A stretch of DNA of 64,000 nt from Atriophallophorus winterbourni (taxonomy: Eukaryota; Platyhelminthes; Trematoda; Plagiorchiida; Microphallidae), in contig JACCGJ010020011.1 in NCBI GenBank assembly GCA_013407085.1, positions 1-64,000 of the forward strand, written 5' to 3'. Below the pieces are notes generated by a model. The model was given only the letters and a program-made list of their open reading frames with translations. It was not told where the DNA came from and made no database searches. Below are positions 19,255-62,399 of the stretch, piece after piece; the first letter of the stretch is position 1, and each line of letters opens with the position of its first letter. Both the position numbers and the translations under genes were made by a program.

Positions 19255-19777
19255 GAGTATGCTGTTCAAGCATGGTCCCCATGGTTACAAAAGGACATGA
19301 CCTTGCTGCAACGGGTATACCACCGCGCTACAAAACTGGTGACCGGGCTATACAACAGGCCATGCGAGGAGCGGATCGCAACACTTAACCTCTTTGACTT
19401 TTCGTACCGTCGTCTCAGGGGTGACTTGATCCTGCGTTTCAATATTCTGCATACAGTGGATCACCCACTCGAACACCTGTTTCATCGGCAAGAAGCACGC
19501 GGTAGCAGATCGCATGGATACAAGTTAATTAATCCACACTCCAGATCAAATTGTCGAAGGTTTTTCTTTGCTGTCAGAGACTGTTTTCTATGGAACTCAC
19601 TGCCCCCACATATCATTTGCGCAACAAGCCTGAACATGTTCAAGGCTGAACTTGACAAGTATATGTTGACTAAACCCAACCTTGCACCTGAATACACGTG
19701 CTGACTTTCCTTGTGTATAAAACATTTGTGTTGTTTTTATGAATTCCCTATATTTTTAATCTGTGGTTACTGTAAAG

Positions 19778-20565: not shown

Positions 20566-21289
20566 GTTTGTCTATTTTGAAAGATTTTGAGCGAATTGAT
20601 CACTATTAACAGCGTAGATACATACATAAATATCCGCCTCTATTGCATAAGATGGTTCCAATATGAGTTTGATCTTAATGTTAAAAATGTTCTCGTTAAA
20701 CAAAAGTGAATTATTAATCTTATTATGATATTATCACTCTATGTCGCACCGCCACGTAGACAATATATGCACTGCATTCGCTTTGCAAAACACGAAACAG
20801 AAACGGTGAACTTTCAGATTTTAAAATCGATTTCGAGTGAAGAGTCACAGACGAAAAACATATAGTTGCACCTTGACTAATATAAGATATCAATAAAAGA
20901 TTTTATTTTTCAATCAGATGTTGTTAATATAGATCGTAAAAGCTTTTACATTTAAATAAAACGTTAAAATGGATTTTTTGTGATTCCATCAACAACGTTT
21001 GCCAGTTTTGTAGAATAAATGTAAAAAATTCCCAACTATTGATGAGATGCTCTGAAATTACAGGAGTTTTATTCCACTTCTAAACCAATTGTGGCATCTG
21101 ACATACACTTATTTCTGACCACTGTAAAGGTGTACTAATTTAACGGACAATATGATGGTGCAATAACACATAATGACTCTTTTATTCAAATATCGTTTGG
21201 CTTAGGCCAAGCCATCCCATATTTGTGACTGAAAAATATCACCCACAGATCAACACCAGCTTCGTGCTGTTTGCACACATTGGGTATGA

Positions 21290-40185: not shown

Positions 40186-40782
40186 CCGGTCAGGGTTATG
40201 AGGATCACTATTCAGTGGTTTGTGCACAAGCATAGGCTCTGTCGAGCGATCGATGATGAATATAGTGTGCGCGACAAAAATTCAGTGTTTACGAAAAAGA
40301 GCAAAATCAGAATTTAATCCGGTGATACTCTTCGGTAGTTGATCGCATGATGTTGAAAGTATGACCAGTCGACGGCGAAGAATAAGATCTTTCCGATGAC
40401 GTTAATCCCTTTGAGGACTTGAAGAGTATTAACAGAGTTGCACGCGTAGATCCAATATGTGCTCGTATTATGGAATACCGCTACGAGAGTGGTATATCTA
40501 TCATCGACGTGTCGGGATATTTAATCAAAAATTAGAACTAAATTGAAGATAACAACGTTTATGCTCGAGAAATACTAACAAATATATCGGTTAAATGTCG
40601 AATTTAATCTAATTTGATTTAGACTCTGAGAAATATGTTCATTTTCATTGAAATATGAATCTCAAATATGAAGTTACATTCATCGTTTCACTCTAAACCA
40701 TGTTTTACTATTGCTTATCAATAATTGTACAAAGTTAGTTGAAACATGTTGTAGAAAACCTCAAAATTTCCACTGATATATT

Positions 40783-40900
40783 GACCAATCAAGGTATCAT
40801 TGCGCATGCGACAGAACGAACCAATCAGATGAGATAAGCGCTTTGCGAACGATATAAATTTGTTTTCTTTCGGAAACAACACTAGTTCTGCAAACTGAAG
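40783..40900 (+). promoter_or_regulatory. MEG promoter and 5' UTR
   Basis: Upstream of the signal-peptide exon are two CCAAT boxes (near 40784 and 40820), a TGCGCATGCG palindrome (40801-40810, NRF1-like) and a TATAAAT box (40853-40859). Transcription would start about 25-30 bp later, giving a 5' UTR of about 20 nt. The compact spacing supports a genuine promoter. The start site itself is inferred. Confidence 0.6.
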
Positions 40901-40946
40901 ATGACCATGTTAAGATTGTTCACACTATTGGTAATTCTTTGTGCGC
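40901..40946 (+). CDS. MEG exon 1: signal peptide
   Basis: ATG at 40901 gives MTMLRLFTLLVILCA plus one base (phase 1), followed by GTAAGT. The hydrophobic core LFTLLVILCA is typical of a secretory signal. The second in-frame ATG (codon 3) would also leave a signal. Confidence 0.85.
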
Positions 40947-43341
40947 GTAAGTTTTGAATATGATTGCTTATTTTCTAGTTTAGAACACATAGTATACTAT
41001 ACGCATATATATTAATTAATAATATGTTTAATATGTTACAGATGCTGATTCATTTGATATCATATTTCGTAAGTTGAACTGAAATTCACATTTCTTTAAT
41101 TGACTGGGTTATTCTGAGCAAAATATACATTTAAGCTTGTTAACCGAAATGAAGTATCATCTCTTTTCTTAAATTTTTATTACGAACTCTGTACCATTAT
41201 GCGAAATCTCATACAATCTTCTGGTATTTTATCGATTTCCTATTACAAGAAAAACAGTGAAAATAAAAATTCCACTAATTTAATATGGAGTTTATTATCC
41301 ATCGTTATCAAATTACCAAGAATACGCAATGTCCAATTTTACTTTTGTAATATGTAATATAATTTTGAAAGGCTACCAAAAAGATACATGTATAGCTGAT
41401 TTGTAATGAGATGGATTCATTTGGACACGATCAAACAAAAATATATCGGCTAATATATGTTTATAATGTTTGTAGGAATATGCTTCACTTTTATCTATAT
41501 TAATATGTACATTTGATAATATAATTTATTTTGTAATCACTATTTTTATTAGGCACGTGGGAGAACAAATTTCATTGTGAGTTTACTAATTGCACACAAG
41601 GAAATACTACTCCAGATTTTCAGCAGAGATCTCAGCGATATGCTGACAAATCTATTTCACAAATAATAATGATCTATTCATTTGAATATCGCATAGAATA
41701 AACAAATGATTAAAGTGGTGTATGTGATATATTATGATACATTTAAAGTAAACAACTTTTACGAATTTATAGTATGCATGTAAATTGAGTGGTAAACTAT
41801 TTTTTTAGTGAAAAAAGTGAAAAGTTTAACAAAAGACTACGAGACATTGCAAATGAAATGACTGCGTATTTTATGTAGAAGAAATATTGCCTTTGTATTT
41901 CTAAAATACATCTATCATAGCTTGACTTCATTGTACCATTATATTTATCAGAAGCGATGAGTGTTTTATAACACAAAAATAGCTTGGAATTCATAAATAA
42001 CATATTTCCCCAGATAATACTTTAACCTCTAATCCTGGAGTTATTCGAATATAAGAGCCAGATAAAAGGAATATATAAAAAATGCAATATAGGTAATTGT
42101 CTTTCATATATCCGTGTATTTCTTGAATAGTTTTCGTGAAATGTATCTTTTCCAATTATCGTGTATTATGTACTATCACAGTGATTAAAAACGAGAATGG
42201 GCAAAGTATGTTCCTCTCATTGAATTAAAACTTATTTCTACTATTGAATCAAAATTCATTAATAACGAAATAAAGAAATCTAGAAATTAATAAATTAATA
42301 TCAAAATTAAGATAGATAATATTGTTGAAACATATTGCAATCTAAATTCACAGCAAATACGTCAAAGTATTAAGAGAGAACTATGAACAATGAATGAGCA
42401 AAATGAATGGAATGTTGTTGACGCTGTCATACGTTGATTAATATAGTTGTTTTATGCTACACAAATTATCAAATCGGCGTTGAGTAGATTTTCGGAAATA
42501 AGGCCATTTTCTGTTTTGCACATACGACACTGCGAGGGGAGACAGCCCTTAAATTCTCTGTAGCAATCGTCAGTTTTCATTCAATGAGCACGTTATTCTG
42601 TTCAGCATAATGTTGGAAATATATCATTTCTCAGAATCTGTCAGCATATATTGTTACTTAAATATTTAATTGAAAAAATATAATCGATCGTACATTTGCA
42701 ACAGTGGAACTAATGAACATTGATGGTGAGTTATGGAATCGTTATAATTCTTTTGTTGTTTGTTTGTTTCATTTGGTTGATGACGACCATTGATGTACAT
42801 CACATCCTCATTATGGATTCATGATCTGTAGCATTTTGAATGATTATGCAGTCCGATTCAGGTGTAGCAATCTCTCCTGCAGCGCTCAAAGCGATAGACT
42901 GCGTGTTCTGCGTTCTGCAGCCAATATCTGTAAACGCTTGTGATGTACGCTGTACACTGGGCCTCCAAATTGAGCAAGTTATCCCTAACCCATAAAGTCA
43001 ATGTGGAGAGCTTTAGTATATTTTTTACAAATGTCTTCGTACCGCAAATGCGATCTGCCGAATGCTCGGGTTCTTGATTTCAAATCACCATTGAGTAGAT
43101 TTTTTTTGAAATTCGACAAAACATCAAAATAATAGAGATTTATAAGTACATTTCATAAAAAATATTGAGTAAATATCTCGATTTAATTTGATCCGATCGA
43201 TTGCCTTCATATTAAATGTTTAAAAAATTATTCCAGGTAAACAAATAACGCTTGAAAGCAGCAAGCCGTTTGATCTTAGTAAGTTTATTGAATCAAGTTG
43301 AACTCAGTATTTATACGATACTACTACTACTACTACTACTT

Positions 43342-43372
<31 letters not shown>

Positions 43373-46300
43373 TAATCTATAGTAAATGAGGCAACACATC
43401 CTCAAGCATCACCAATTTATAAACTAAATGGAAATTTCAACGAGAATAATAATCTTCGTGTACGATATCCTAAATTCGGTGTACATTTTAAAGGATAGAA
43501 AATTGAATTGAATTTCCTTATTCGATAATATATTTACCATTTCAGCTGCCCTTCAAGTCTTAATGTAAAAATATGCCACACAATCGCAAAATAATATTAC
43601 TTGCAAACAGTATCGTCAAAACAGTGCATTCCGCAGCGAAATAAAAATCCAATAAATTCGGAACAAGTTATAATTGTGACATCATCCTTTGTTATTTTTG
43701 AGGAGAAAAACTTTTAATTTATCTATTTGATGCCTACAGCGATTTTTAATTTTGGCTGGGAAAATATCAAGTTTATCAATAAGTAGCATAATGTCAGAAC
43801 TGCCATTGATCGACACCTTTTTTATCCACAAATATTTCTATTTTTAGTTAAGCTCTCAGACACGCACTTTGCGAAAGGTAATTGAATATGTCAATGTTGG
43901 ATTTTGGTTAATTTATTAGTTTCAATGTTGTTCATCGATAATATGTCATAATTCAGTTAATATCATATTTATGAGCAGATCCTCTATAAAATGTATTCGG
44001 ATGTATGTCGGATATCATAGAAAAGTATGGTTTTGGAATTGATGCGATGATTGCTTAAGAAATCGTAAATATATATTCTATTATCAATCACTTTGATTAT
44101 TATTTTGCATTAACCAACAAATAATCATAATAAAATTCCTGAAATAGCATTTGCTACGAAAACCATTGATGTGTGGCAAATGAAAACAAATTGTTAGTAG
44201 GTCTAAAATAACCAAATTTTTACTAGTAATAAGAGTAAAGGCAAAGAATATTTGTGCTCTATTCAAAAAGTGATTGAACTTTCAGATGCCGCGCATAATT
44301 GATGGCCATTATAATATCTTTATAACTAACTTTTCAGTTGAAAATCAAGAAACAAATTGTGAGTTCCATTTGTGTAAAAATGTTCCCGAAATGCTTAAAG
44401 GGTATATTTGAATTTATTATCGCAAATTGACTGAATAATATATCAAATCACGTTCATCCCAATGAATTATGTTATATGACAGCTGATACCCCTGATTTTT
44501 ATGGAAAGTTTTTCGGGTATTTAATCAAAAATTGTTACTTTTAGTGTATCAAACAAACATAACAAACTATAAAATTCTGATCACCAAATTAAACTCTATT
44601 TTTGATGTATTATGGTGCTATTATACCACACACTTACATGCCGCAACAGATTTCTGGCTAATTGACGACATCACATGCAGTGCATACGGCCAGATTCAGA
44701 AACCAGTGAAATAGTAATAATGTGGAAAACAAAGGTATACTCATTGAAATGTTCTTAAAAAACGATGTTCATATATAGCATTTTCAAGCGAATCTCAGCA
44801 AAGCCCTCAATTGACGCTTCATTAAACTGTAAATTGTTTGAAATGTTTTTATGACTGTCAAAACAATGAAAAACATTAGCTTGCTTGAACTTGAACGAAA
44901 AATCACTCCCTTTTACAAAACATATATGACGTCATCATGTATAGATAGTAGGACGACGTTTGCATTACCAAAGTAATGTGTTGCTCACATCCCCATCCAT
45001 TATGTATTCTTTTGAACAGTGGATAAGTGGTAAACAAAGTTAAATAGGGTTAATACAACGAACCACGGTGTTTGGGTACATAATTACATAGGAATTGCTT
45101 ATCGACAGCTGAAAACGCTAATAAAAGACCAAAATAGAGTTTATCTCACATCCCACCACTTACACATATCAACCGGTTTTTGGTTGCTTTTGAAATGTTC
45201 ATCAGCTTTCTAATGCGCTTATGTATAAGTACATGGCTCGGAATATTGTATTAAAACGAATATTTTAATTAAATAGCTTACTGTGGTGATTGTTCGATTA
45301 ACGATCAATAATAATCGATCATTCATCACCACTCATTCAAAGATAATCAATAGTACTATCATTCAAGTTCTGATTGTCATTCATTCATTCATTCTGATTC
45401 TGGTTGTTATTCAATACATACTGTGATTCGAGTGAGCGCGGTTGTTCTCACTTACATTCTTGGGCTGATTATTCAATTCAATACAATACAATTCATTACA
45501 ATTACATCCACTAATACCTTCCTAGTTTAACCATATAATGATGATTGAATTTTTTACTCAGCGTAGTAATGAAAACCACAATTAAAGATTCTTTTGTGTA
45601 AACATTAAGATGAAAATTACGTCAGTCTAAGTGAAATGATGTAGCTTAATTTGTACTTTTTCATCTTAGTTTTCTAAAACTTGATAGGGATAAAAGTTAA
45701 TTGACCATCTAATGACAAAACATTTAGGTCATTTGGACTAATATGTGTATGCTTGGAACAATAAGAATTTCAAATATAACGAGGGTAAATTGTTAAATTG
45801 AATAATGCAAATTCCTGCTCAGCAATGATCAAATTTTGGAATTTATTTCAGCAAGAGTGGTTGATAAACGTAGGTCATTACTCAATACACGCTATTATCC
45901 TTTTTTAATTTTTAAAAAAATATAAAAGTAATATTTATGACGTTTGAGAACCAACACTACTTTGAGTGGAAATTCCGTTTCTGACTATCAACCCATGTAA
46001 GGTTATTACAAGGTTATTACACAGATAATGGCCATTCATATTTCGTTAAATACTTTAAACGGATGGACCCAGAAACCGGTTTACGGTGCACGTGCTCTTA
46101 AATGTGTAGGCTTTCAATCACAACCGTAGAATGATCTTGTATAATTCGAACACAAATAATGTCAAATTGTCAACGGTTGAGCAGCCACAGAATAAATTAA
46201 ATACGTTTAGGTTAATGAATATTAAACACTGGAAACGGAAATACAAGAAGAAGCTATCCAATCCTAGGAAATGATGAGCAGTACATTAAAACCAACACTA

Positions 46301-49300
46301 GAATTTAAGCCAAAATTTCATAGAAAATGAATTTGACCGTTATTATTTTCCTGTGATTGATTGATAATGGAATTTGAAATGCTGAGCATGACCGGTTGCG
46401 ATGCACGCCTGAAAATGTTAGTGAATGCAACGCGCATTTTATCTACGATACAAAATATTAGTAAAAATGCTATAGTAACAAAATGTTACAGCATAAAAGA
46501 TGAATCAGATATAACGTGTATAATTAGAGTTATCACAAAAGTATTAACTTTTTAAATATCTGGTGCATAAATTAGGTCAAAAATATATATGGTGATATTA
46601 ACCGAAATTTGTCTCATGTTATGTTTGTCAACGTATTTAAATTCCGACCAAATAAAAGACGATAGAATAAGATTGCGTGTACCTGGTAGTCAGAGTTTAC
46701 GGTGTAAAATAGTGTTTTTTTTGTACCCAGTAATTTAGTGCCGTGACAATTCTACCTTCACGTGTGCTACGTGACTCTTATGCTGTAACATTGAACAGAA
46801 GAGCTAATACTTTGAGGTGCGCGTGCGAAGGAAGCAAGTTTTTAGGTTTTTATTCTAAGCAACATATTATTCGACACTTTCCTAATAAATATGATATCAA
46901 TGAATATGTTAAAAAATTCTGAAACTTGGCGATTATCAATTGATAAAATCGAAAAGTAGAAATTCATTTTCTAATTTGAATTGCTTAACGAAATGATATT
47001 ATACCCATTGAATTTGTCATATTTAGTGTTTCCTGTTGCATTTGGTATGTTTCTCTTTTGCGATAAATAATTTTCGAAATCGCGAAATATTAACTACGAT
47101 TTTCACTAATACTTTAATTTTATGCCTTAAGCTGATTTTGGACCGATGGAATATAATTGGAGTAGGTTGTTTGTTGAAGTATTTCCAATAATTTATAAAT
47201 TCTCCGAATTGTACAAAAGAAAAATTCAAGTGAAATCTGTTAATTGTTTTCAGAATAATTAGATCAGCATTCTACATTAGATATTTTTACCACAGAAAAT
47301 AAAAAAATTATTATCATTAATAATGAGCTTCGTTTTAACAATCTATGCATAAAATTTAGATGTTGATGTGAAAGAGACAAGACTCGGTAAGTGCTATGTT
47401 ATCCATTTTGGTGGATTACATAAAATGGAGATGTTATTTACCTCAATAAATTTTCTATTGAATCTTCTTCTATCGGAGAAAAACATACATTTTTTGTTCA
47501 GCTGGCGTCCTATAAGTTTTTAAAATATGTACCATTTCGTTATGTGGAAATTTTATAGATTTTATGCCATCAAGAAGTAAGATGTCTTTTTGGAGCCATG
47601 GTGTCCAGGCTTGTGCGGCATAATCTAGAACCGGGTGTATATATGTGTTCATCATGAGTGGAAAACACCCCGGGGAAAACGTCCAAATATCCGCCGTAGC
47701 ATGCCAAACAGCCGAGACGCGCTATTGTAAACGGTTTCGCATTGTAGACCATTTTTCAAACTGCCGCACATCCAGACACCCAGGTCTTTTTCTTCTTCGG
47801 TGTACTCCAGGTTTTTAATCGCCGAGCTTGTATTGATAGGAAAGTCCACGGTCACTTCTGACCTCAATCATCTTCGACTTTTGCATATTCAATGACAGTT
47901 TATTTTGGGACGACCAGTGATACAAAGCATTCAAATAATTTTGCAGCAAAATACAATCGTCAGCATTTCTGATTCGCCTCCATACTTTTATATCGTCAGC
48001 AAACAAAACAATCTTATTACCATTTGGTATCGGTATATCATTCATATAGACTAGAAACAGTATTGGTTTAAGCACTGAGCCTTGTGGAACACCGCTAGAG
48101 ACATCGATGTGCTTCGATAATAGGCCGTCCACACGAACTCGGGTGTGTCTGTTGCTGAGATAATCTCTGATCAATTCGTATAGTCTTCCAACAATACCGT
48201 GTTTCTTTAGCTTGTTCAAGAGTAAATTATGATTAACTCAGTCGAAGGCTTTAGAAATGTCCAGGTAGCACACATGAATACAGCCCCCCGCACCTACAAT
48301 CCTCGTCTGATCGTCTAACCTCAAGGTCGGTCGGTCAAGTCAAACGATTGCTTCCTGATCAGGCTCCATGGATTTCCTCGCAAAAACTCCTGCATAAAAT
48401 TCTGCTAACAGGTCAGCGGTCTGATTTATGGATTCTGTGAAGCCGGAAGAAGATTTTAGGGCAAAGACTTCTGGTTTAATATTTGTTCTATCGTTCACAA
48501 GTCTATACAAGTGTTTCATATTCCGTTGCATCTGAGAAATCAATTGCGATTGGAACGCTTTTTTATCATCTCGAATTAAGCTGATAACTTTGTTTCACAG
48601 TCGTGTAAATTGTGCCCAAGAATCAGCTGTGTTGGTAGCCTTGAGAAACACCCACATTACTGCCCTTTGTTTCATCCGCTTTTTAGTCTCGCTTCGTAGT
48701 AAAATTTTATTTCGTTGAGACGATTTCTTCGAAGAAAACATTAAATGTTCCTCCAATATAGATTTCAGGTGCTGTAAGAGAGATCGACAATGACTATCCG
48801 GATCGGATTAATCCAGTTGTGCGAAACTAGTGCTTTGTAACTAGGCACGCAATGCATGGTAGTTCACTCTTCTGACGCATTTTGTCCCGTCACTATTGCG
48901 CCCAGTGCTACAAACGTACTCGAATTCTAGGACAACGTGATTGTTTATAAACGATATTCTCTGCAGCTGTAAGGTCTGATGTAAGTATAAGTTTTAAGGT
49001 AGACGGCTGGTCTGATCCTCCCATACGAGTAAATCCAAAAGCGTGGTTATAAAGGGGTGCCTAAACCAAAACTGCTCGAAGTTCATTTTTAAATGTCTCT
49101 GATGGATGATCCTGCCGGCTATAGAGCTGCGGAAAGTTGAAATCCCCCATTATTAATATTTGAGTATTTTATTGCGTTGTTACATAGCGCAAAGCATTAA
49201 TCAGTTTATTGTTTAGGTCGAGAGTTGCTGTTGGAGAACGATAGATCACTCCAATAATGCATTGGTCTCCTGAAGTAAGAGTCAGAGAGCACCAACGTGT

Positions 49301-52300
49301 GTCAGTGATATCAAGGGTCAGGTCGTCCATAGCTTTACAGATAAACGATTGCTTGAAGTTGAGTGCTACTCCTCCGCCATCGCCTAAACTGTCACGCCGG
49401 AATAGAGACATTTTGGGCAAAAAGAGTTAATTATCAGACAATGAGGCATGGAACCATGTTTCTGTTACTGCATCTATTTCTCGCGCCTTTTCATTACAAA
49501 TCTCGGACAATTCGATTAATTTGTTGAAAAGACTGTTCGCGTTTGTATACATGCACTTAATCGTATTTTTCGTGAGTAATGGCCCGGTGTATACCGAAGT
49601 TATTGGTCCGGCCTCTTTGGATGGTAAAACATGTGTGCGTCTTATTGGTCGCCGACGGCTTGAATCGACAATTAGTTTTCGGTGTGAATTGCTGAGTCCG
49701 ACTCGATTTTAGCCGCACCTACGACGTTTTTTGATGCATTGATTTTTTCCATTTGAATGGAAACGCTGCTATCCGCTATCTCCAAACGGGAAAGTGTTCG
49801 ACTTGGTTTGTGTGGGCTAAGTCTAACATCCTTAGGAAGTGTTCGTTTCCCTTTTGTCCATTCCGACCTTACTATTTCTGACTTAGCGCTGCTTAAGAAC
49901 GTAATCTTTAAAGTTTCGGTTTACCCTTTTTTGGCCAAAAAGGAACTCGAAAAGTGCCCACAACGACGGCATTATAAATATCGAGAGGACACGCAATGTA
50001 GCGCCATTGTTTTAGTGCTCTACGGTTCCCTGATGCGGTTCGATGCTCTAGAAGTATTTTCTGGTACACCAAGTAGAGCTATACTTCATGATACGGTTTT
50101 TCATTCCGTTCATGTTACGCTTCCTTTCCCAACATGGTAGGTTGTGTCGGGATCTCTCTTGAGTAGGTATGCATTCAGCAATATGTTCTCGAAATTAGCT
50201 TCGCATTTTAGTGTTACCTTGAGCAATCGACGTTGACCAATATGATCTGAAGTTGAATGGCGAGTTAGACGAGTCACTTTATCTGCGATTACATGTTCAA
50301 TTTGCATTAGGTGGCAAAGTTCAGACCATTTCTCAACATCGTGTTTCTGTTTGCTATCAAACAGGCTTTCTCGGGACTCGCTAACGCTAATTCTTTGGTC
50401 GTTTTAACTGGTTCCCAAACTGGATTAACTCTGTTTTTTTCTTTTTTGGGACACGAATAGCCTTAGCCTCAGATTCCTTCAATGGTGGTTCTGAAAACGT
50501 TGTATTGATATGAAGGTTTACATCAGTGATCGCTTGCGTACTCACATGATTTATCAATATTTTTTCCGCACGTCGAAGGCCCAACTCCAAACCGGCCATT
50601 CTATTTTCTAATTGCGCTTCAAAAGTATCGGCATCGTGCAAAGATGTAGCTCTGCAACGAACACAGACATAGCATGCACCTGGAACCTTTTCGTTATTTA
50701 ATAATGCTATCGAATCAGGGGCTAAATTACGGTAGCATTTACCATGGATTTTACCCATACACAGAAAACACGTTATTACTTTACCGCCATGGGACTCACC
50801 GGTTGTTCGCATGCTTTGCACGTGACTTCGGGACAATTCTGTGTGTCGAGTTTCGTCCTATCAGCTGGGCCGGCCGTAACCATAGTTGCGTTCGCCGGGT
50901 CCAGGCGCTTGGCAATGAGGTCAAGTTGGTTCGATGTCGCTGTCACAGTTTGATCGATCGATTTTTTAGGCTCTATGTTATATCTCGTGATGCGGTCAAA
51001 CATGTTAGTAGCCTGAATGGGTTGTTCAGCTGTGTGACGGGTTTTTGTTCGTCGGGTCGAGGTGGCTGTTTTGAAACACGTGATTTCGTCATGTTGCAAA
51101 TAATCCAATATAACTCGTTAACTACACAAGCTAGAACACAGAAACAAGTATCAAAATCCGTAGATCGAGGCGATCTTTGCAATGATAGCAAAAACCGTAG
51201 AATAGTTAACGACCGTAAAAAGTTTGCGCGCGTGAGCAAACTGTGATATTTACGCCGATTTAGTAACTTTGCTGCTAATCCGTTGACAAGAACAAAAATA
51301 ATAAATTCCGATAGATATGATTGAAAGTAGCACAAAATTTTTGGAATGAGTGCAAGTTCGGTTGATATGAGCGACACCGCACTTTATAATATGAGCGCGG
51401 TAAATAAGCGCAATTGCATAAGTTGACTTTGTTGATATAATTGAAGTCTACTTATCAAAATTTGAAATATGTTAAGCATTTATGTATCCTCACTTAGTTC
51501 ACCATGGAAATTGATTCTGCATGCATTAAATTATTCATTTGCATTTTTTTATTTTCACATTTCAAATCCCGTAATTCATTTTCCAAATATAGGTCCTAGT
51601 GAGGAAAGGACAAGTATGTCAACTTTTAACGAACATCCAATTCTTATTCCTTTAATTAATTCTAAAGACATTTGTCAAGATATCCTCAGAACAATGATAC
51701 TGTTTTCTGCAAATACGTCGATTTCAATTCATTTAAAAATGTAGAGTATATTGATTAATTAACATTGATCGGAGGTGAATGATCAACTGATGTTTGCAAA
51801 AAAAGATTAAACTATTTTGCATTTCCAAAAAGTCCACACTGTAATCAGTATGATGTGGTTTAGTAACATAAATTCATTATAACCATTAAACTGGATCCGA
51901 ATCACAGCAGAATAATCTTACTCCAATTTGATATGCTATAATTTCATTATAATTGAGAAAATTTCAATATGATTTAGTTGGAACTACACTATAAAGATAT
52001 TCCATGGTAATTGAATACAACCGATGACTTAAAATTTGCAGATTGCTTATTTCCATATGCCACCAACAGTATATATTCATATTGATGTCAATCTGTGACT
52101 TAATACAAATATTTATTAATATCTTCAGGTCTAACATGTTTGGGGTTGCATAATAATCGGCAGTTTAATAATTTCTATACAGGATTTGATTTACATTTAT
52201 GTTTCATAATCTTACTAGGATATTTTCTATTCTCAATGAAGAGAACAAATTTCCTTGGTTTTACAGCTAAAAATCAATTAGAATTTTTATGATATACATT

Positions 52301-55300
52301 GAACGTATTGATTTCTCGGATATTACTTAGATATTGCTTGAAATTTTTAAAACCATTTTAAAATTTGCAGTTGATGTTGTGTTGAGCGGAGAAAAATGTA
52401 AGAACATAATAAAGTTTGGTTAAAGTTTGGTTCACAATTAATTGAAATATGTTCATGGACTGATCGCACAGTCACAATGGAAATGTGCGCAATGGATTCT
52501 AGCAGATTCTAGATAATATTTTGTTTTTGAAATTGGAGCTAAGTCAAACCAAGTTTCATAGTCTTGACTAAATTATGGCTCAAGAATTTCATCCACATCA
52601 CCTGCTTCACTCCACCTCTGAACAGACTATGCTAGAACAAAGTTTGTGAAATAATTTTGCGTTTGTACATTCATGCCAAAATGATATGTGTGAACCTTTT
52701 CAAAGTCAGAGTTAATTCTACCTCGCCTTGTAGTCAGAAAAATTAATGCTTTTCAGACTAAACATGTATTACACTGAGGGATATCGAACAAAAAATAATA
52801 TTTATATTAGAAATATTTGCACACACCCGATCACACAAGCACATATGCTATGCAATTGGAAAACAGTCTATTCGTCATCCGATCAGCGCAGGACTTCCTG
52901 CCATAATTCGCAAACAATTTATATCCACGTTTGGGTAATCGTGTGACTTTTGACAATTTGATCACTTTCCTTTTCCCGCTCTGGACTCTTCTAATAGTAA
53001 TTGACCTGGTGATGGTGATCACTATTTATTACTTCGTTCACTTCCAAAGCTATTAGCATTGCATTTTGAAATATGGTAATTTTCAAAAAGATACTAATAA
53101 CACAATGAGTATTAAGGAGATGTAAACTGTGATAGATTATATATATCATCCGTGATTATCTGCATTGTCAAATTCGATGATGTGACAAGTTTCTAAAAAG
53201 TGCTCGATGAATTATAATGACGTGTAATGGATCGATATTCCTTCAATTCTAAGAGGGGCAATGCTCCCCCTTTTGTTTGTAATCCATGTTGGTCTACTAT
53301 CAAAGAAAACATAATATCAGATCTATCTGCATTTGAGTGAAAGATTGGGCAATTTCACTTCAATAAAGCTGCATGACCGACGATTCATTTGGATTTTAAC
53401 GATGAAGTTGTTTGGAAATTACGGTGTCTGGTGATTAAAAAAATCAACTTGAAACCTCGAGTCAAATAAATTTCTGACGGCTGGTCCAACACTGATTTTT
53501 CAGTGGCGCTTAAAAAGACATGACTTTTTATTGAAAAGAGTGTTATCGTCCGAAATCTTTTACCATTTCGAAAACGCAACCCTGGACTAGTTTACCCCAA
53601 ATATATGGAGATTCATCTAAATCAAAGTCATTTGTAGTAAGCTAGTGGTCGATTAATTTGAAAGTAGACAACTTTGATTGGGAGGGACAGAATTACATGA
53701 CCTGCTTGACTATCAAATTTGCAAGATTCTCAACAGTAGACATATATTCGGGCGAAACCTTAAAAATTTTCTGATAGCATGACTTTACAAAAGTATATAG
53801 TGATAGTTATAAACAGCACCATTTGAGAGTTGAACGCCGCCAAAGTATAATTATACTGAAATATGATTAGCACAATTTTCTGCCAATCATCTTTGCTAAA
53901 CTGGCTATTCCAACTTTCAAAAAGCTCAGCAATTTGCTTTTATTAATGATTCCAAAGCTTAACGTAGTAAATTCTAATTTCATTAAGAATTTTCATTCTT
54001 TATTTGAGAATTCTAGAAACAAGATTTTGGAGATCATGTCTGTGTTAAATGTATATATTACTTGTAACAAAAGTACATTGATTCCGTTGCAACACACTGA
54101 CAGCGCGTGCAGTTTAGAATATGATAAATCAAATTCTTTTCCTGTGTCAATTATTACACCGTGTCACTATGTAGTTCTTAGCGTGCAACAATTCGGTCTT
54201 GTCATCACCTACAATGTTTTAGGAAGAAAATTCAATAAGCGTTCCCCCTTTTAACGGCGCCTAGCTGCGATTACTCTGTCCAGGTTTTGGTTTGTTGCAG
54301 CATCTAGAGACACAAACATGCATTACAACCGAAAGCTTCGAGTACTATTTAATACCATATAACAGAAATATCAACTAAATAAATGGGGAAAAAATTATTG
54401 ACATTTGATCGGTGCACATATTTGTCAATTACACTAAAACAGTGGCTATATTTCAAGGATATGTCCATCTACGGAAAACAGTAATTTTCAACCTTGTTAC
54501 GTAATGAGACTGCTTACATTTTGTGGTGTATTACTGCTACCGTTATTTCTAGTTAAACAGCTCTACCATCGGTGTTGCTATGGATAAATTTATGATTAGG
54601 TCAGAGAATCACTATGTGTAGCATTTGGCCATTCTTCCCTGATAGGAGTGAAAAAAGGAAAAAAGCTTACACTGACTCACGCAACCTTAATTTAATTATT
54701 TAAGGATTTTGCGCATTATAAAAAATAAACACTATCTTGACAATAGGAATAATTATATTCAACTTTTAATTATGGTTTATGAGTCAATTAATGCAAATCC
54801 TCGTTGATAATAATCTTTTTCCAGTTACATTTGTGATAGGTTTGTTTGCAAATTTTCATTAACAGCTACGCAACATGTTTTTTCATTATGATAATTTCTG
54901 AGTTACCAATTACCTTAATAAATATCTCTATTCTAAATTAAATGTCATAAATAATTTAACTAAAGTATATGTTGTAATATTAAATTTGCCAATTTTATAA
55001 AATTAAACTTCTAATAAATACAATTAAAATCACATTGTTTGAGAAATCCCTCCACATTATTATCCCAAGTTTATTTTTATATTTAAACATGAACAGTATT
55101 GTGTAGTTAGTATTTTAAACCAATCATTTGAAGCGGTTTTTTAAATTATAACTTCGGAACGAAACTTTTTGTCAGGCCATACACAAATCAATATTGGGAA
55201 ATATGGTTATTTTACTTCAAAAATCTTTAATCATTCTGTTCATTAATTCAACTGTAAATATTGATTTTGTGTGTAGACCGGGCAAGACGAGTGAAAACGT

Positions 55301-55359
55301 TTACAATGTGCTTGAAGATCATGAGAGGCATGATTATAACCGCCCACAGGATGGATTAG
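40901..55359 (+). CDS. Micro-exon gene (MEG), predicted secreted protein, about 14 kb long
   Basis: Exon 1 encodes a signal peptide (MTMLRLFTLLVILCA), with cleavage likely after CAHA at the exon 1/2 boundary. It is followed by at least ten tiny exons of 27, 24, 24, 21, 42, 30, 21, 18, 21 and 27 nt. All are multiples of three, start and end in phase 1, have AG/GT borders, and join into one frame without a stop. This symmetrical micro-exon design is known from schistosome MEGs, whose secreted, splice-variable products come mainly from intra-mammalian stages and glands; that role is inferred. Each exon adds 6-14 residues. The mature product would be about 100-130 residues, mixed polar and acidic, with almost no cysteine. 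No named MEG family is assigned, and the 3' end is uncertain. The coordinates span exon 1 to the phase-1 stop in the last exon candidate. Confidence 0.8.
41042..41068 (+). CDS. MEG exon 2 (27 nt)
   Basis: Acceptor ATGTTACAG, donor GTAAGT. With the carried base it encodes HADSFDIIF, completing a likely signal-peptidase site (CAHA/DS). Confidence 0.85.
41553..41576 (+). CDS. MEG exon 3 (24 nt)
   Basis: Acceptor TTTTTATTAG, donor GTGAGT. It encodes RTWENKFH in phase 1. A further 18-nt candidate lies upstream (41372-41389, RYQKDT) with weaker sites. Confidence 0.8.
42182..42205 (+). CDS. MEG exon 4 (24 nt)
   Basis: Acceptor TACTATCACAG, donor GTATGT. It encodes LIKNENGQ in phase 1. Confidence 0.7.
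42705..42725 (+). CDS. MEG exon 5 (21 nt)
   Basis: Acceptor TTTGCAACAG, donor GTGAGT. It encodes MELMNID in phase 1. Confidence 0.7.
42760..43110 (-). pseudogene. Old LINE 3' fragment in a MEG intron
   Basis: Diverged match to the 3' end of the element at 61680-62090 (shared GATGTACAT, GCAGTCCGATTC, AATCTCTCC, CTTCGTACCGCAA). It covers the final C2H2-like coding region. No frame survives. Confidence 0.7.
43237..43278 (+). CDS. MEG exon 6 (42 nt)
   Basis: Acceptor AATTATTCCAG, donor GTAAGT. It encodes GKQITLESSKPFDL in phase 1. Longest of the internal exons. Confidence 0.8.
43321..43375 (+). repeat. Microsatellite (CTA)n then (TAA)n
   Basis: Trinucleotide runs of about seven CTA units and about ten TAA/ATA units in the intron after MEG exon 6. 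Confidence 0.9.
43848..43877 (+). CDS. MEG exon 7 (30 nt)
   Basis: Acceptor CTATTTTTAG, donor GTAATT. It encodes IKLSDTHFAK in phase 1. Confidence 0.75.
44338..44358 (+). CDS. MEG exon 8 (21 nt)
   Basis: Acceptor CTAACTTTTCAG, donor GTGAGT. It encodes VENQETN in phase 1. Confidence 0.8.
44965..45225 (+). repeat. Diverged array-arm fragment in a MEG intron
   Basis: The order of landmarks (GTGTTGCTCACA, GTGGATAAGTGGTAAACAAAG, a GATGACC-like block, ACCGGTTTTTGG) parallels 2140-2440 of the array arm, with many substitutions. The arm sequence is therefore a dispersed repeat that existed before the array. No gene. Confidence 0.6.
45370..45520 (+). repeat. Low-complexity ATTC/ATTCAATAC stretch
   Basis: Imperfect runs of CATT and CAATA steps within a MEG intron. 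Confidence 0.7.
45852..45869 (+). CDS. MEG exon 9 (18 nt)
   Basis: Acceptor TTTATTTCAG, donor GTAGGT. It encodes SRVVDK in phase 1. A 30-nt in-frame candidate follows at 45967-45996 (LEIPFLTINP, donor GTAAGG), but its acceptor ends GAG, which is uncommon. Confidence 0.65.
45997..47465. other. MEG intron sequence, no other gene seen
   Basis: AT-rich, with no credible ORF or recognised repeat. Two exon-like windows here contain stops in the MEG phase. Confidence 0.5.
47570..48780 (-). pseudogene. CR1-C reverse transcriptase, broken
   Basis: Frames include MISQMQRNMKHLYRLVNDRT (48340-48543), then HGIVGRLYELIRDYLSNRHT, SSGVPQGSVLKPILFLVY (motif B) and NKIVLFADDIKVW (motif C) in 47815-48219, and EEKDLGVWMCGSLKNGLQC. 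Motif A (CYLDISKAFD, near 48260) is followed by a stop. The stretch between about 48240 and 48340 is shortened, deleting part of the RT fingers. Inactive. Confidence 0.8.
48800..49720 (-). pseudogene. CR1-C endonuclease remnant
   Basis: Visible motifs: KCMYTNANSLFNKLIELSEI, AVTETWFHASL, GDGGGVALNFKQS, QCIIGVIYRSPTA and, near 49145, LIMGDFNFP-like sequence. Stops separate them. The region 48800-49080 has degenerated further. Confidence 0.7.
49740..51110 (-). pseudogene. CR1-C ORF1 with PHD-type finger
   Basis: The minus-strand N-terminal frame (50776-51108) ends with CPEVTCKACEQPVSPMAVK. After a shift the next frame (50387-50836) continues the finger (VITCFLCMGKIHGKC, CYVCVRC) and a coiled-coil-like segment (ENRMAGLELGLRRAEKILIN). 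So the PHD finger is present but split by an indel near 50780. Further remnants (ENILLNAYLLKRDPDTTYHV) match CR1-A and CR1-B ORF1. Confidence 0.75.
51593..51613 (+). CDS. MEG exon 10 (21 nt)
   Basis: Acceptor CCAAATATAG, donor GTATGT. It encodes RPSEERT in phase 1. It lies about 5.7 kb after exon 9 because a CR1-C element occupies the intron. Confidence 0.7.
52042..52068 (+). CDS. Possible MEG exon (27 nt)
   Basis: Acceptor AAAATTTGCAG, the same as exon 11; donor GTATAT. In phase 1 it encodes NCLFPYATN. It fits in size, phase and openness, but the donor is weaker. It could be an alternatively spliced exon. Confidence 0.45.
52371..52397 (+). CDS. MEG exon 11 (27 nt)
   Basis: Acceptor AAAATTTGCAG, donor GTAAGA. 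It encodes IDVVLSGEK in phase 1. Confidence 0.75.
52398..54824. other. MEG intron sequence, no other gene seen
   Basis: AT-rich, with no recognised repeat family. A 106-codon open frame near 53934-54254 lacks any family signature and is probably chance. Confidence 0.5.
54825..54839 (+). CDS. Possible MEG exon (15 nt)
   Basis: A strong acceptor (CTTTTTCCAG) is followed by 15 nt that stay in phase 1 (FTFVI), but the donor GTTTGT is poor. Confidence 0.35.
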
Positions 55360-55406
55360 GATCATACGATGTTCAAGCCCTCAAATTAGCGGAAAATTCT
55401 TTGTAA
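55277..55406 (+). CDS. Candidate terminal MEG exon
   Basis: It follows a good acceptor (GATTTTGTGTGTAG). In the phase kept by the other exons (phase 1) it encodes about 27 residues and stops at 55357-55359. In phase 2 it is open to a TAA at 55404-55406 and encodes a more protein-like tail (PGKTSENVYNVLEDHE, GLGSYDVQALKLAENSL) with tyrosines in YNVL and SYDV contexts. Which frame is used cannot be told from DNA alone. The Gypsy LTR starts 90 bp later, so any poly(A) site must lie in between or in the LTR. Confidence 0.4.
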
Positions 55407-55495
55407 AATATTCAAAGTATTTGCATTTGGTTCGATACACAATCATTTTACATAATAGTTGGGTATGAAATCTCTGTGATATGGCATTGAGCAGT

Positions 55496-55902
55496 TGTAG
55501 TGGACTAAGGAAAAATAGTCTAGCACTACACACAAAATGGCAATAATGGAAAGAACTCACTGAAAGACCAAGAGAGCAAATGTCCAAATAAAGATCCGTA
55601 ACGTCCAACGATAGCGAAGTAATCCACACAGGAAAATCCAAGAAATGTAATCCAAGGTGCAGAATGCGCTAAAATGTTGGAGATTCCGTTAATCACAGTT
55701 ACAGCACAACGTGGCGCACACAGACTTCGCAACCACGGAAGAAGACAGAATCCGAGTTCGAAATTGTATTGACCGCCAAAAAAGTATATTGTACATGCAT
55801 TGATACAGATGAAGTGTACATATCCAAAAAATGAATAATCATACAAGGCCAAAAATCGTATGTACAAAATACGAAGTTACGAAGTGGAAGCAGTTCACTA
55901 CA
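55496..55902 (-). repeat. 3' LTR of the Gypsy element
   Basis: 407 bp; direct copy at 59970-60375. It begins 90 bp after the candidate last MEG exon and could supply a poly(A) site or antisense promoter (inference). Confidence 0.95.
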
Positions 55903-56142
55903 ATACTCCCCCACCAGAGCGTTAGTTAGGCTTGAATGAAGGTTAACATACGCTCGAAATGTTCATAAGGTCACGTAGTCAGCAAGGCGTTTGGGCCAAT
56001 GCACATGTCTACCGGTTCGGGTTTGAACGGAGGTAGGAGGGACCGGGGAATTAGGATGAACATGGTTCCTGGTTGGCGCATGAGGATTATCAGGGAGTTG
56101 TGTATGAGGCGTAGTGATGCTTGGTGGAGATTGCGGCTTAAG

Positions 56143-57090
56143 CTAGACAAAAGCGGGTTTTAAGCGGTCAATAGAAACTGTGTCACGTCGACCATTCATA
56201 TCCAAAACGAAGAACTTGTGTTTACGGTCGATAACTCTGTGAGGTCCATGATATGATGGCTGAGGATGTTTACAAACAGAGTCGCGTCGCACAAAAACAA
56301 AATCACACGTATCAAGATGAGGTGATTTCTGTTGGTGGATAATGCGCTGACGAGGAGGCGTGAAGTCCAACTTGAACATGAACGTGCGCAAGCGAGAAAT
56401 GTAATCTGACGACGGAAGTGGTGACTGGCTAGGCACAACGAGTTCACCGGGAAGACACAAGGCGGTACCAAAAACTAACTCTGCGGCTGAGCATTGCATG
56501 TCTTCTTTGATAGCGGAACGTATTCCAAGAAGAACAAGTAGCAAATTCTCAGTCCATTTATTAGGATCAGGCTGGCAGGCTAAAGAGGTTTCAAGCTGCC
56601 GATGGAAGCGTTCAACCAATCCGTTCGAGTTAGGGTGGTAGGCGGTGGTTCGGATGTGCTGGCAGCCAAGGAGTCGCGTCAAATCTCGGAACAAAGTCGA
56701 TTGAAACTGAGCGCCACGGTCGGTTGTGATGACAGATGGTGTGCGAAAATTGGCAATCCAATGTTCGACGAAGGCGCGTGCTACAGTCTCTGAACATGTG
56801 TCTTTGATTGGAACAGCAATCGGCCATCGAGTAAAGCGATCAATCGCCGTTCGGATGAATGAGTATCCGTTCGATGATGGCGTAGGACCGACGAGATAAA
56901 GATGCACATGAGAGAATCGACAGTTGGGATGCCTGAATGGAACGTGAGGTGTGAAGGTATGTCGAGATATCTTGTTCTTTTGACAAGGAATACAATGCTG
57001 GACCCAATTTCGTATATCCTTATTCACGGACGGCCAAACAAAACGATCTGCGATTAGCCTCACGGTGGCACGCTTTCCATGATGAGACAT
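56143..57090 (-). pseudogene. Gypsy integrase with first catalytic Asp changed to Tyr
   Basis: Open frame of 315 codons. The HHCC zinc region is partial (MSHHGKRATVRLIADRF, WVQHCIPCQKNK); its N-terminal part lies in another frame upstream of a GA-repeat near 57122-57136. The catalytic core normally has a DLVGP-like start, but here it reads HVHLYLVGPTPSS (TAT codon near 56899-56901), removing the first acidic residue. VITTDRGAQFQS and NSNGLVERFHRQLE keep the other two. The C-terminal domain (YHGPHRVIDRKHKFFVLDMN, VSIDRLKPAFV) is intact. It cannot integrate as it stands. Confidence 0.9.
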
Positions 57091-57197
57091 CGAATGAAAA
57101 TGATCGAAAATGGCACGTCGCAGAGAGAGAGAGAGACATAAGGTCTAGGTTTCCCTGTCGAGATATCGTACATCAACGAGGCATCGGCGTTTGGTAA

Positions 57198-57580
57198 CTA
57201 AATTTGCTGCAAATCCAGGGATCGACACTTCGCGAGTTCGGTTTTATCAATCCCGGCTTGATGGATATTCATAAGGGAGAGATCAAATGGTGTGCCTGTA
57301 GACAAAACAGAAATGTCAGGTCTTGATAAAGCATCGGCAACCAAGTTAGCATCTCCTTTGACGTAACGAATATCGGTAGAGAACTGAGAGATGTAATCTA
57401 AGTGTCGAATCTCGCGTGGAGAATGACGATCGAGTTTAGACTGCAGAGCAAAAGTTAATGGTTTGTGATCCGTAAAGATAATGAAGTCACGACCTTCCAG
57501 TAAATGACGGAAATGCCGTATGGCCAAATATATCGCAAGTAATTCACGGCCAAATGTGCTCTAGCGAGTTTGTGCCTGAT
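57198..57580 (-). pseudogene. Gypsy RNase H region
   Basis: After the shift and an in-frame TAG (QTR, stop, STFGRELLAIY) the frame reads AIRHFRHLLEGRDFIIFTDH with KPL, LDYISQFSTDIRYVKGDANL and VADALSRPD, typical of Ty3/Gypsy RNase H. It ends with LDLQQI and a stop. Confidence 0.85.
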
Positions 57581-59190
57581 TAAGCTTTTGCGAGAAAAAA
57601 TGCCAGTGGACGGACTGTGTTCTTGTGGTGTTGTTGTAAAACAGCTCCCACAGCCGAATTGGAGGCATCGGTCGTCAATGACAAAGGAAAGGTCGGTTCG
57701 GGATCAATGCAAGAAAGTCCGGTGGCACTGCATAGAGCTTTTTTGGATGCGACAAAAGCTTCAAGTGCCTCAGGCGAAAGCTGAACAGATTTTGATTTAG
57801 AGTCGAGCAAATCGGTCAGCGGTGCAATGATCTTTGCGCAGTTTGGAATAAAGTGACGGTAAAAGTTGATCATGCCGATAAAGCGGCGCAACTGTGTTAC
57901 CGTTGTGAAGACAGGAAAGTCGGAAATCGCCTGGCATTTCTCGGGAAGAGGTGTGATACCAGATCGAGTAAGGCGATGACCGAGGAAGTCCAGTAAATCT
58001 GTGCCGAAAACGCATTTACTTGTGTTGATCTTTATCCCGTAGTTAACGAAACGCTCTAAAACGAGACGGATGTGCTCGACATGCTCTTCTGGTGAGTTGC
58101 TGTCAATCAAGACGTCGTCGATGTATGCGTAGGCGAACGGCAAGCCTCGCAGGACTTCGTCGATGAAACGTTGGAAGGTTTGTGCAGCGTTTCTCAGGCC
58201 AAAGGTCATCCGAGTGAATTCGTATAAGTCGAAAGGAGTTGTGACTGCCGTTTTGGGTATGTCTTCCTCGGCTACGGTGATGTGATAATAAGCACGGACG
58301 AGATCAAGTTTAGTAAGGATCGTTGTGGCGCAAAGATTCAAAGAAAAATCGTGAATGTGTGGCACCGGACATCTGTCTGGGACCGTTCGATTGTTAAGAG
58401 CACGATAGTCGCCACATGGCCTCCAGTCATCTGAGGTCTTCTTGGGGACAATATGAAGTGGTGACGACCAGGAGCTGGAAGAGGGACGAATGATCCCAAG
58501 CTCTAGCATGTGCTCAAATTCGGCTCTTGCGATCTTGAGTTTTGACGGGTGAAATTGCCTAGGTCTGAAGGAAACTGGTGGTCCGCTAGTGACAATGTGT
58601 TGCTTCACGTAGTGGGTCACTTTGTCTGTCGGTCTTGGGGGCTGCATGACGGATGGAAATTCATGCAGTACAGCACTAAAAATCGAAGCTTCTGGAGTAA
58701 CAGCTTTGATGCCGGAGAAAATGGCTTTAGTAGTGATACCTGAGACCTGTAAAGAGGTTTTCGTATCTACTAATCTTCGCTGTTTAACTTCGACGGTTAG
58801 ACCAAAGTGAGACAGAAAGTCGATGCCGATTATTGGGCAATTTACCTCCGCGATGAGAAACACCCAGGGAAAACTGCGTCTTAGTCCTAAGTTAAGGGTT
58901 AGCAGGCGTTGGCCGTAAGTGTTAATACGAGTGCCATTTGCCGCTTGAAGAGTATAGGACGACGGTTTGGAGGTGCTGGATGTTGGAGGTATGACGCTAA
59001 TTTCAGCGCCAGTATCGACTAGAAAACGCAGACCACTCGATTTGTCTGTAACATAGAATAGGCGACTCGGGTTTGGTTGGCCGGGAACAGTAGTCGCCGT
59101 AACGGATTGACCATTGTTTTTGACTGTTTTTGAACACGGAGAGATGCATTTTGAGTCTTTATCCCCATATCTCTTGTGGTACCAACATAT
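57580..59190 (-). pseudogene. pol: Gypsy Pol: protease and reverse transcriptase (open)
   Basis: A single open frame of about 535 codons runs from the Gag cysteine cluster through [14 protein letters not shown] (protease DTG) to RT. RT motifs: [52 protein letters not shown] (catalytic D), [31 protein letters not shown] (YIDD) and [17 protein letters not shown] catalytic residues are intact. The connection ([20 protein letters not shown]) leads to the RNase H start. One extra T in a T-run (PLAFFLAKA, expected [11 protein letters not shown]) shifts the frame at 57590. Confidence 0.9.
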
Positions 59191-59299
59191 GCGCTAAGGG
59201 GAGTTTTCGATGATCGAGATTCAGATTTTGAGCGAGGTGGGTTGGGAGATTTTGACGAAAGAGAGTTCGCCGCAAGAGTTAGTTCAGCGACTTGTCCTT

Positions 59300-59866
59300 T
59301 TAATTCCGAACATGGACAGGGCGAATTGATGTGTGCGGGTTCAACCGTAATCTGGTCGGCTTGTCAGCCGCTTGTGCTAGTTCGTCTAATGATACGTAAG
59401 TAATCAAACCAGCAAGCAATTGGCAAATGTCAGTTGGGAGGTTTTTAAACCACAACTGTGTTAAAATGCTCTCCTCAATCCTTTTGTCTTCAAGTAGCTC
59501 TTTCATCTGGCGAAGAAGCTGAGATTGCTTTTTATTACCAAGAGCCATTTTAGAAAAGAGGACGTCGAGATGCTCTTGCTCAGAAAAAATAATTCGGTCT
59601 ATTAGTGCGGATTTGAGCTTTTCGTATGGCTTGACCTCAGGCATAGCATAAATAAGATCACTGACTTGTTCAGCTACGTCGAGAGGGAGCATGGTCACCA
59701 CATGAGAATACATAATAGATTCATCGGTGATGCCATAAATACGAAAGATAGCTTCAATTCGGCCGAACCGAAGAGGGAGATTAGAAACGTCTAAAGCCGG
59801 TAAAGTGCATGGAATATGTTGTGATTGTAGGATTGTAGAAACTTTACTTATGGAAAAATCGCTCAT
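59300..59866 (-). pseudogene. gag: Gypsy Gag (broken before the cysteine cluster)
   Basis: The ORF from MSDFSISKVS gives 188 codons of capsid-like sequence (LPLRFGRIEAIFRIYGITDE, DRIIFSEQEHLDVLFSKMAL, LTQLWFKNLPTDICQLLAGL). It aligns in layout with the Gag at 17752-18498 (LITRLTESERLRVQRLLTQE, LFLQRLPVHVQQIMANFVDM). It stops at 59300, and the terminal [18 protein letters not shown] cluster (near 59180) is in another frame after a stop. Confidence 0.8.
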
Positions 59867-59969
59867 GGTGGGGTGTTAAGTGAGTATTCCGAAATATAAG
59901 CCAAAAGTTTACAAATACGAATTTAACGTAAATGAAAAAAATTGCGGTAGTAGACGGGCTCACCAATTA

Positions 59970-60375
59970 TGAAGTGGACTAAGGAAAAATAGTCTAGCAC
60001 TACACACAAAATGGCAATAATGGAAAGAACTCACTGAAAGACCAAGAGAGCAAATGTCCAAATAAAGATCCGTAACGTCCAACGATAGCGAAGTAATCCA
60101 CACAGGAAAATCCAAGAAATGGAATCCAAGGTGCAGAATGCGCTAAATGTTGGTGATTCCGTTAATCACAGTTCCAGCACAAAGTGGCGCACACAGACTT
60201 CGCAACCACGGAAGAAGACAGAGTCCGAGTTCGAAATTGTATTGACCGCCAAAAAAGTATTTTGTACACGCATTGATACAGATGAAGTGTATATGGCCGA
60301 AAAATGAATAATCATACAAGGCCAAAAATCGTATGTACAAAATACGAAGTTACGAAGTGGAAGCAGTTCACTACA
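59970..60375 (-). repeat. 5' LTR of the Gypsy element
   Basis: 406 bp. Compared with the other LTR its inner end reads TGAAGTGG instead of TGTAGTGG, and scattered substitutions and a 1-bp indel occur around 60130-60300. Confidence 0.95.
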
Positions 60376-61658: not shown

Positions 61659-62399
61659 TCAACCTATTGTCATTTGAAAGTGAATGGGATGTGTTGTTGG
61701 CCTCCGTCGGTCGGTGGCGACCATGGATGTACATAACATCGCATGAATTTCATGTTTTACAACGTTTGAATGATTAAACAGTCCGATTCGGAAGGAACAA
61801 TCTCTCCCGCAGTGCTTGCAACGATAGTCAGAACTCTGTTGTATTGCATCAGTTGCACGCCGGCGGCGTGATCTGCGTTCAGCAGCCAGGAGCTGTATTT
61901 GCTCCTCCCCGGCTTGCAGTCGACGCTTTACACAATGCCTCCAAAGTGAGCGGTCAAGCGCAAGTTCTTCCCAGCTTGCGGGGTCAATGTCAAGAGCTTT
62001 CATATCTCTTTTGCAAACATCTTTGTACCGCAAGTGCGGTCTGCCCAATGGTCGACTTCCTAATTGCAACTCACCGTAGAGTAGATCTTTCGGAATACGA
62101 CCATTTTCCATTCTATAGACATGACCAAGCCACCGCAGGCGGCGCTGACGTAATAGGGTAAACATGCTCTGTAGACCAGCTTTTGAAAGCACTTCAGCGT
62201 TAGTCACTCTGTCCATCCACGATATGTTCAAGATACGACGGATGCTTCGCAGATGGAAAGCATTCAGCTTCCGTTCGTGTATTGCGTGGGTGGTCCAGGT
62301 TTCACTGCCGTATAGTAAAGCATATAGTACGCACGCGCTGTATACCATAATCTTTGTCTTTACAGTCAGCTTGCGGTTACCCCAAACACGAGAGTTCAA
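61659..62399 (-). CDS. LINE ORF2 C-terminal part with zinc knuckle
   Basis: An open frame of 246 codons, just out of frame with the upstream RT (shift near 62398), continues RVWGNRKLTVKTKIMVYSAC, LLYGSETWTTHAIHERKLNA and LRQRRLRWLGHVYRMENGRI. It ends with the zinc-finger-like YRCKHCGRDCSFRIGLFNHS. This segment would belong to the RT thumb and a nucleic-acid-binding tail. Confidence 0.75.
   Translation of the reverse strand: MNSRVWGNRKLTVKTKIMVYSACVLYALLYGSETWTTHAIHERKLNAFHLRSIRRILNISWMDRVTNAEVLSKAGLQSMFTLLRQRRLRWLGHVYRMENGRIPKDLLYGELQLGSRPLGRPHLRYKDVCKRDMKALDIDPASWEELALDRSLWRHCVKRRLQAGEEQIQLLAAERRSRRRRATDAIQQSSDYRCKHCGRDCSFRIGLFNHSNVVKHEIHAMLCTSMVATDRRRPTTHPIHFQMTIG

Follow-up and report, generated by a model that had tools for sequence, protein, structure and literature searches.

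A probable micro-exon gene with a predicted secreted product in a 64-kb stretch of parasitic flatworm DNA

The DNA considered here comprises positions 1 to 64,000 of contig JACCGJ010020011.1 (forward strand; hereafter "the window", i.e., the whole 64,000-nucleotide (nt) stretch that was analysed), and it carries, from position 40901 to at least 52397 of the + strand, what is probably a micro-exon gene (MEG) of a parasitic flatworm, in which a start exon with a predicted signal peptide and a series of tiny phase-1 exons would together encode one secreted protein. Exon 1 (40901..40946, + strand, 46 nt) begins with a start codon, encodes MTMLRLFTLLVILCA plus one further base and leaves in phase 1 through a GTAAGT donor. 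Its hydrophobic core, as read by eye from hydropathy, is signal-peptide-like, which bears out the signal-peptide exon that an earlier sequence-only reading of this DNA had placed at 40901. The last base of exon 1 and the first two bases of exon 2 form the codon CAT, so that the peptide runs ...LCAHA|DS across the junction. Signal peptidase cleaves by an A-x-A rule, and the A-x-A site at AHA|DS, likewise read by eye, arises only if junction 40946/41042 is used. Ahead of exon 1 lies a promoter-like cluster (40785..40859, + strand) that consists of CCAATCA at 40785 and 40821, TGCGCATGCG at 40801, AGATAAG at 40832 and TATAAA at 40853. Of these, TGCGCATGCG is an NRF1-like site. The cluster begins 116 bp 5' of the ATG and TATAAA stands 48 bp 5' of it; the + strand of the whole window has five CCAATCA, of which two are the copies in the cluster, 36 bp apart, and TGCGCATGCG is present once in the window, in this cluster. 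In esophageal gland genes driven by FoxA, a forkhead motif is described some 130 bp 5' of the transcription start (PMC12998952). The two forkhead patterns that were looked for, TRTTTAY and TGTTTAC, are absent from both strands of 40700-40900, and with TRTTTAY missing there the gene gives no sign of the FoxA esophageal-gland programme.

Behind exon 1, a chain of symmetric phase-1 micro-exons extends on the + strand from 41042 to 52397. Bit values given with the exons are scores from the chain search described below, unless otherwise stated. Those listed as micro-exons are 41042..41068 (27 nt, ADSFDIIF with split codons, 15.6 bits), which with exon 1 completes the AHA|DS cleavage motif; 41553..41576 (24 nt, TWENKFH, 13.2 bits); 43237..43278 (42 nt, KQITLESSKPFDL, 12.5 bits with an acceptor of just 2.6), which was found by the chain search only and missed by a crude rule; 43848..43877 (30 nt, KLSDTHFAK, 13.7 bits); 44338..44358 (21 nt, ENQETN, 15.5 bits); 45852..45869 (18 nt, RVVDK, 15.2 bits); 51593..51613 (21 nt, PSEERT, 13.3 bits); and 52371..52397 (27 nt, DVVLSGEK), which at 16.2 bits is the maximum of the chain. 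Candidate micro-exons, also on the + strand, are 42182..42205 (24 nt, IKNENGQ, 13.4 bits), 42705..42725 (21 nt, ELMNID, 15.0 bits, missed by the crude rule) and 47027..47044 (18 nt, FPVAF, 12.6 bits), together with a weak one at 47132..47161 (30 nt, DFGPMEYNW) that falls slightly below the 12-bit line at 11.9 bits and one at 47360..47386 (27 nt, VDVKETRL) with a donor of 8.8 and a poor acceptor of 0.4 bits, which is under the acceptor cut of the chain search and so outside the chain. The listed internal exons are all 18-42 nt long and divisible by three, divisibility being imposed by the search, so that the excess over chance is the test. The junctions 40946/41042, 41068/41553, 43278/43848 and 44358/45852, which the sequence-only reading had singled out, have AG/GT borders; the internal exons that they delimit have lengths divisible by three and an open phase-1 frame. 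We set aside three low-scoring exons of the chain (44694, 44799 and 52706, 7.1-8.0 bits) and a 9-nt candidate of the crude rule at 45277. Splice pairs at 42832 and 42921 were dropped because they lie within a fragment of a long interspersed nuclear element (LINE) and have stops in phase 1, and the pair at 46799 because of a stop; further candidates of the pair scan were also dropped, most of them overlapping, in other phases or within a large LINE. Comparison of the window DNA with itself found neither duplicated exons nor a second copy of the gene, and the matches of 40401-55420 elsewhere in the window are transposon pieces plus one match of 27 bp.

The chain search weighs splice-site strength, frame and codon make-up, with transposon pieces masked, and demands of each exon an open frame and a length divisible by three. 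It assigns the phase-1 chain of the + strand 60.0 bits, versus 27.8 for phase 0 and 22.9 for phase 2, and the three phases of the reverse strand score 22.8, 10.4 and 18.3. Block-Markov, locally composition-matched shuffles reach 12.8 bits on average (standard deviation 7.0, maximum 37.4), and none of 150 attains 60.0. With the codon term dropped, i.e., by splice sites alone, phase 1 scores 42.0 versus 13.9 +/- 6.2 in the shuffles, of which again 0/150 attain the observed value. Real DNA served as a further control: combining 10.1-kb windows with strands and phases gives 324 settings, of which the nine highest (45.6-69.0) are all + strand, phase 1 and overlapping the gene, and the top score among the 186 combinations clear of the gene is 43.5. 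Non-overlapping exons of at least 12 bits number 11 in phase 1 versus a mean of 1.7 and a maximum of 5 in 300 shuffles; phases 0 and 2 have 4 each, and the reverse strand has 4, 1 and 3. A crude rule that is free of weights finds 10 exons in phase 1, where shuffles average 2.7 and 0/500 attain 10, and a stricter pair count (acceptor 4, donor 5) gives 9 open phase-1 pairs versus 3.4-5.3 expected. What the sequence shows is that the chain far exceeds chance, that it keeps to one strand and a single phase, and that promoter-like elements precede its ATG.

A number of points nevertheless weigh against the gene. Openness and divisibility are imposed by the search and thus count for no single exon as independent evidence. 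The splice-site and codon weights are generic and untrained on this organism, and the coding term contributes only -0.6 to 3.0 bits per exon. Phase 0 is second-best by splice sites alone (31.8, with phase 2 at 17.8) and a close second by the crude rule (8 exons, with 4 in phase 2). In the loose pair count (acceptor 2, donor 4) there are 13 open phase-1 pairs, and the remainder of the window leads one to expect about 13; simple counts of pairs do not persuade, whereas the weighted chain does. The content of guanine plus cytosine (GC) favours the gene in being above the flanks in 11 of the 13 micro-exons measured, but it is below them for the exons at 41042 and 44338. The 3' end is ambiguous, as set out below, and when nine of the 13 micro-exon peptides were compared with known proteins, together with exon 1 and a stretch of 42 amino acids (aa), no candidate sharing three words came up; the sensitivity of this search is low, as junctions are written as X and the pieces are 5-15 residues long. 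Among the 11 exons of at least 12 bits, about two (judged by the shuffles) to four (judged by the other phases) are possibly chance. One might hold, then, that the chain consists mostly of pairs that resemble splice sites by chance, in AT-rich DNA of an intron or between genes that follows a signal-peptide-like fragment of an open reading frame (ORF), a view with which the background level of the loose pairs, the two to four possible chance exons, the nearness of phase 0 by splice sites alone and the want of a homologue all agree. We regard it as quite improbable, given that no shuffle attains the observed values in either series, that the full score is specific to phase and strand, that the best real window clear of the gene stops at 43.5 and that a promoter-like cluster is present. 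Since other phases and the other strand yield up to 4 exons of 12 bits, we keep to a count of seven or more real exons; of the eleven, some seven to nine are probably genuine, and the weaker ones taken singly are not to be trusted. The sequence-only reading had put the number of symmetric phase-1 exons, each of 18-42 nt, at ten or more, spread over 11.5 kb.

Transposons and the uncertain 3' end bear on two further explanations. Within introns of the predicted gene lie a degraded LINE fragment (42775..43104; 64% identity to 61709-62090) and a LINE retrotransposon on the - strand (47560..51430, borders approximate) with a reverse-transcriptase-like ORF, recognised by eye, at 47815-48237, and immediately downstream is an element flanked by long terminal repeats (LTR; 55496-60375, - strand) that has repeats 97% identical, a CAGT target duplication, and integrase and reverse-transcriptase domains. 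The gene might accordingly be a former micro-exon gene now in decay, with its introns invaded by transposons, the acceptor of the exon at 47360 lost (0.4 bits) and its 3' end gone, and no clear terminal exon is seen. Eleven exons, however, retain good splice sites and an open frame (openness being imposed by the search), and micro-exon genes of Schistosoma mansoni are also reported with transposable elements near their 5' ends (PMC10526429), so that decay appears unlikely. At the 3' end itself two stretches compete. A possible terminal exon at 54301..54362 (+ strand) is entered in phase 1, has its stop at 54360-54362 and is followed, 16 nt past the stop, by AATAAA at 54378; its acceptor (8.9 bits) is the strongest within 52400-55496, and with a coding score of -1.6 in phase 1 it is without coding support. 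At 54825 another terminal exon could be entered in phase 1 (acceptor 8.5), but it was rejected for its low GC and the lack of a coding signal. The other stretch, 55277-55406, is the terminal exon of the sequence-only reading, and here that reading is not confirmed, for the stretch is best read in phase 2, the chain delivers phase 1 and no convincing switch was found. It has an acceptor of 6.4 bits and is open in phase 2, with a coding score of 9.8 in that phase versus 0.6 and -1.6 in the other frames, or 22.4 versus 13.2 and 11.0 against a more local background; the phase-1 frame is also open, for 26 codons. It could be the true terminal exon if, as described for MEG-8 and MEG-9 (PMC5825161), it were entered in phase 2 by way of an unseen phase-switching exon; its coding score is the highest among the end candidates, and the portion upstream of 55277 (55203-55276) has no coding signal in the frame of the ORF to which it belongs (-3.9). 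We find this rather unlikely. The search for a phase-switching exon past 52397 found none that is convincing (two-step phase changes not being searched as chains), the best candidates measuring 13 nt (GTGCGC donor, 11.3-11.9 bits) and 43 nt (8.6-9.6 bits), and switches at 45020, 45567 or 46731 (10.7-13.0 bits) would leave the phase-1 exons that come after them in the wrong phase. The frame, moreover, runs upstream to an ATG at 55203, and the peptide is hydrophilic where the terminal domain of MEG-8 and MEG-9 is hydrophobic (MEG-8 compared by description); a phase-2 terminal exon coding for a conserved hydrophobic domain, as in those families, is not what is seen here.

The ORF that ends at 55406 extends from ATG to stop over 67 aa (55203..55406, + strand) and lies just ahead of the LTR element; its start is hydrophobic, and its second half is coding-like. 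It may be a separate gene for a small secreted peptide, a reading that is suggestive only, since an ATG at least 20 codons upstream in an open frame is found for 18 of 201 combinations of acceptor and frame and the first part of the ORF scores -3.9. Pfam gave a single weak hit under the cut-off for this ORF, and no solved structure was found to match it.

If the micro-exon gene is read as we favour, RNA polymerase II would start just past the TATA box, and introns of about 95 bp to more than 4 kb, one of them bearing a LINE, would be spliced out. Signal peptidase would then cleave after AHA, and the secreted product would be a short, charged, cysteine-free and probably disordered peptide. Of the 97 residues encoded by 13 exons, the doubtful ones included, 33% carry a charge, 65% are polar or helix-breaking and none is cysteine, a make-up that fits a disordered secreted peptide. 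Every internal exon contributes complete codons and leaves phase 1 unchanged, so that each could be skipped without a frameshift; such skipping would give rise to several related peptides, for which we propose, by analogy, a role at the host interface. In MEG-8.2 exon skipping was rare, seen in 1/10 clones in one cloned case (PMC12998952), so that splice variation is not to be presumed here. Rfam reports nothing in the window at the gathering score.

The rest of the window is rich in repeats and transposons. In positions 1-27066 repeats are nested in one another, both direct and inverted; most are 93-99% identical, their length reaches 5 kb, and the inverted arms measure about 1.2 kb. A near-identical ORF of 119 aa occurs at 416-775 and, in the opposite orientation, at 10445-10804. 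At 19777-20567 a segment of about 395 bp is present in two directly repeated copies (98.7% identical), each with an array of the 10-bp unit AACTTTGAAT, and 8376-9566 on the - strand encodes a LINE reverse transcriptase and then DUF6451. Part of the large intronic LINE (47979-48096) has about 70% DNA identity to 16797-16914, within another LINE (16149-17234) whose reverse transcriptase has its closest named relatives in four Paragonimus westermani proteins (69-77% identity) among the best 120 of 6083 matches, where no named Schistosoma protein appears and most rows are unnamed. For the LTR integrase, among the best 120 of 2311 matches, the top one reaches 58% identity, those from Spirometra reach 56% at most and those from Schistosoma 50-55%. 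By these elements the host is likely a flatworm and probably no sequenced Schistosoma, although transposons are imperfect markers of host kinship. The sequence-only reading had assigned the gene to the schistosome MEG class of secreted proteins; the statistics, exon 1 and the promoter-like elements argue for the class, and the word "schistosome" finds no support in the relatives of these elements among the matches listed.

MEGs have been defined structurally by at least seven exons, of which half or more are micro-exons, with a run of four (PMC7653826). The predicted exons here, i.e., exon 1 and 11 internal exons of at least 12 bits, show this structure, and there would still be at least seven if four were chance. 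MEG proteins are further described as having an N-terminal signal peptide (PMC4350168), for which the hydrophobic exon 1 and AHA|DS, both read by eye, speak here. The motif reported to follow the signal peptide in S. mansoni MEG proteins, F-L-hydrophobic-hydrophobic-F-x6-W-polar-(K/H/R) (PMC10526429), is not reproduced, the corresponding residues being FDIIF-R-T-W-E-N-K, where the second position lacks L and W comes after two residues, not six. Nor did the search find any protein that shares three words with the nine exon peptides, and a phase-2 terminal exon (PMC5825161) would be shared with MEG-8 and MEG-9 only if 55277-55406 belongs to the gene. The locus would thus belong to the MEG structural class as a new member outside any numbered MEG family. 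No MEG in a fluke other than a schistosome was seen among the literature titles and abstracts listed, but MEGs are called widespread in parasitic trematodes (PMC10399815). The Opisthorchis felineus genome paper discusses micro-introns, and a term search of its main text gave no hit for micro-exons, MEGs or short exons (PMC6530080). Micro-exon genes are hard for standard gene finders (PMC7653826, PMC10526429), and a locus found from its DNA alone with statistical controls offers a way to list them without RNA. The likeness to MEGs of Schistosoma, Trichobilharzia and tapeworms lies in the signal-peptide start, the runs of exons shorter than 70 nt and divisible by three, the long introns and the transposons nearby (PMC10526429, PMC7653826, PMC5825161, PMC4350168). 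With the tandem MEG family of the tapeworm Hymenolepis microstoma it extends to a short hydrophobic N-terminus with an R-L-F-x-L-L core (PMC7653826), which is a common make-up of signal peptides, although the exon peptides here are free of cysteine and DNA comparison found no second copy of the gene in the window. We suggest tentatively, and with less than even confidence, that the gene founds a sequence family of its own in a fluke lineage outside the blood flukes. Should the host not be a blood fluke, the gene would join the tapeworm MEGs already reported (PMC7653826) on the question of whether such genes originated with blood-feeding, as has been suggested (PMC5825161), or are an older flatworm device, and if it does represent a family of its own outside the blood flukes, then together with the tapeworm genes it would mark the frame-neutral mixing of exons in secreted proteins as a device that parasitic flatworms share in general, not one peculiar to blood-feeders.

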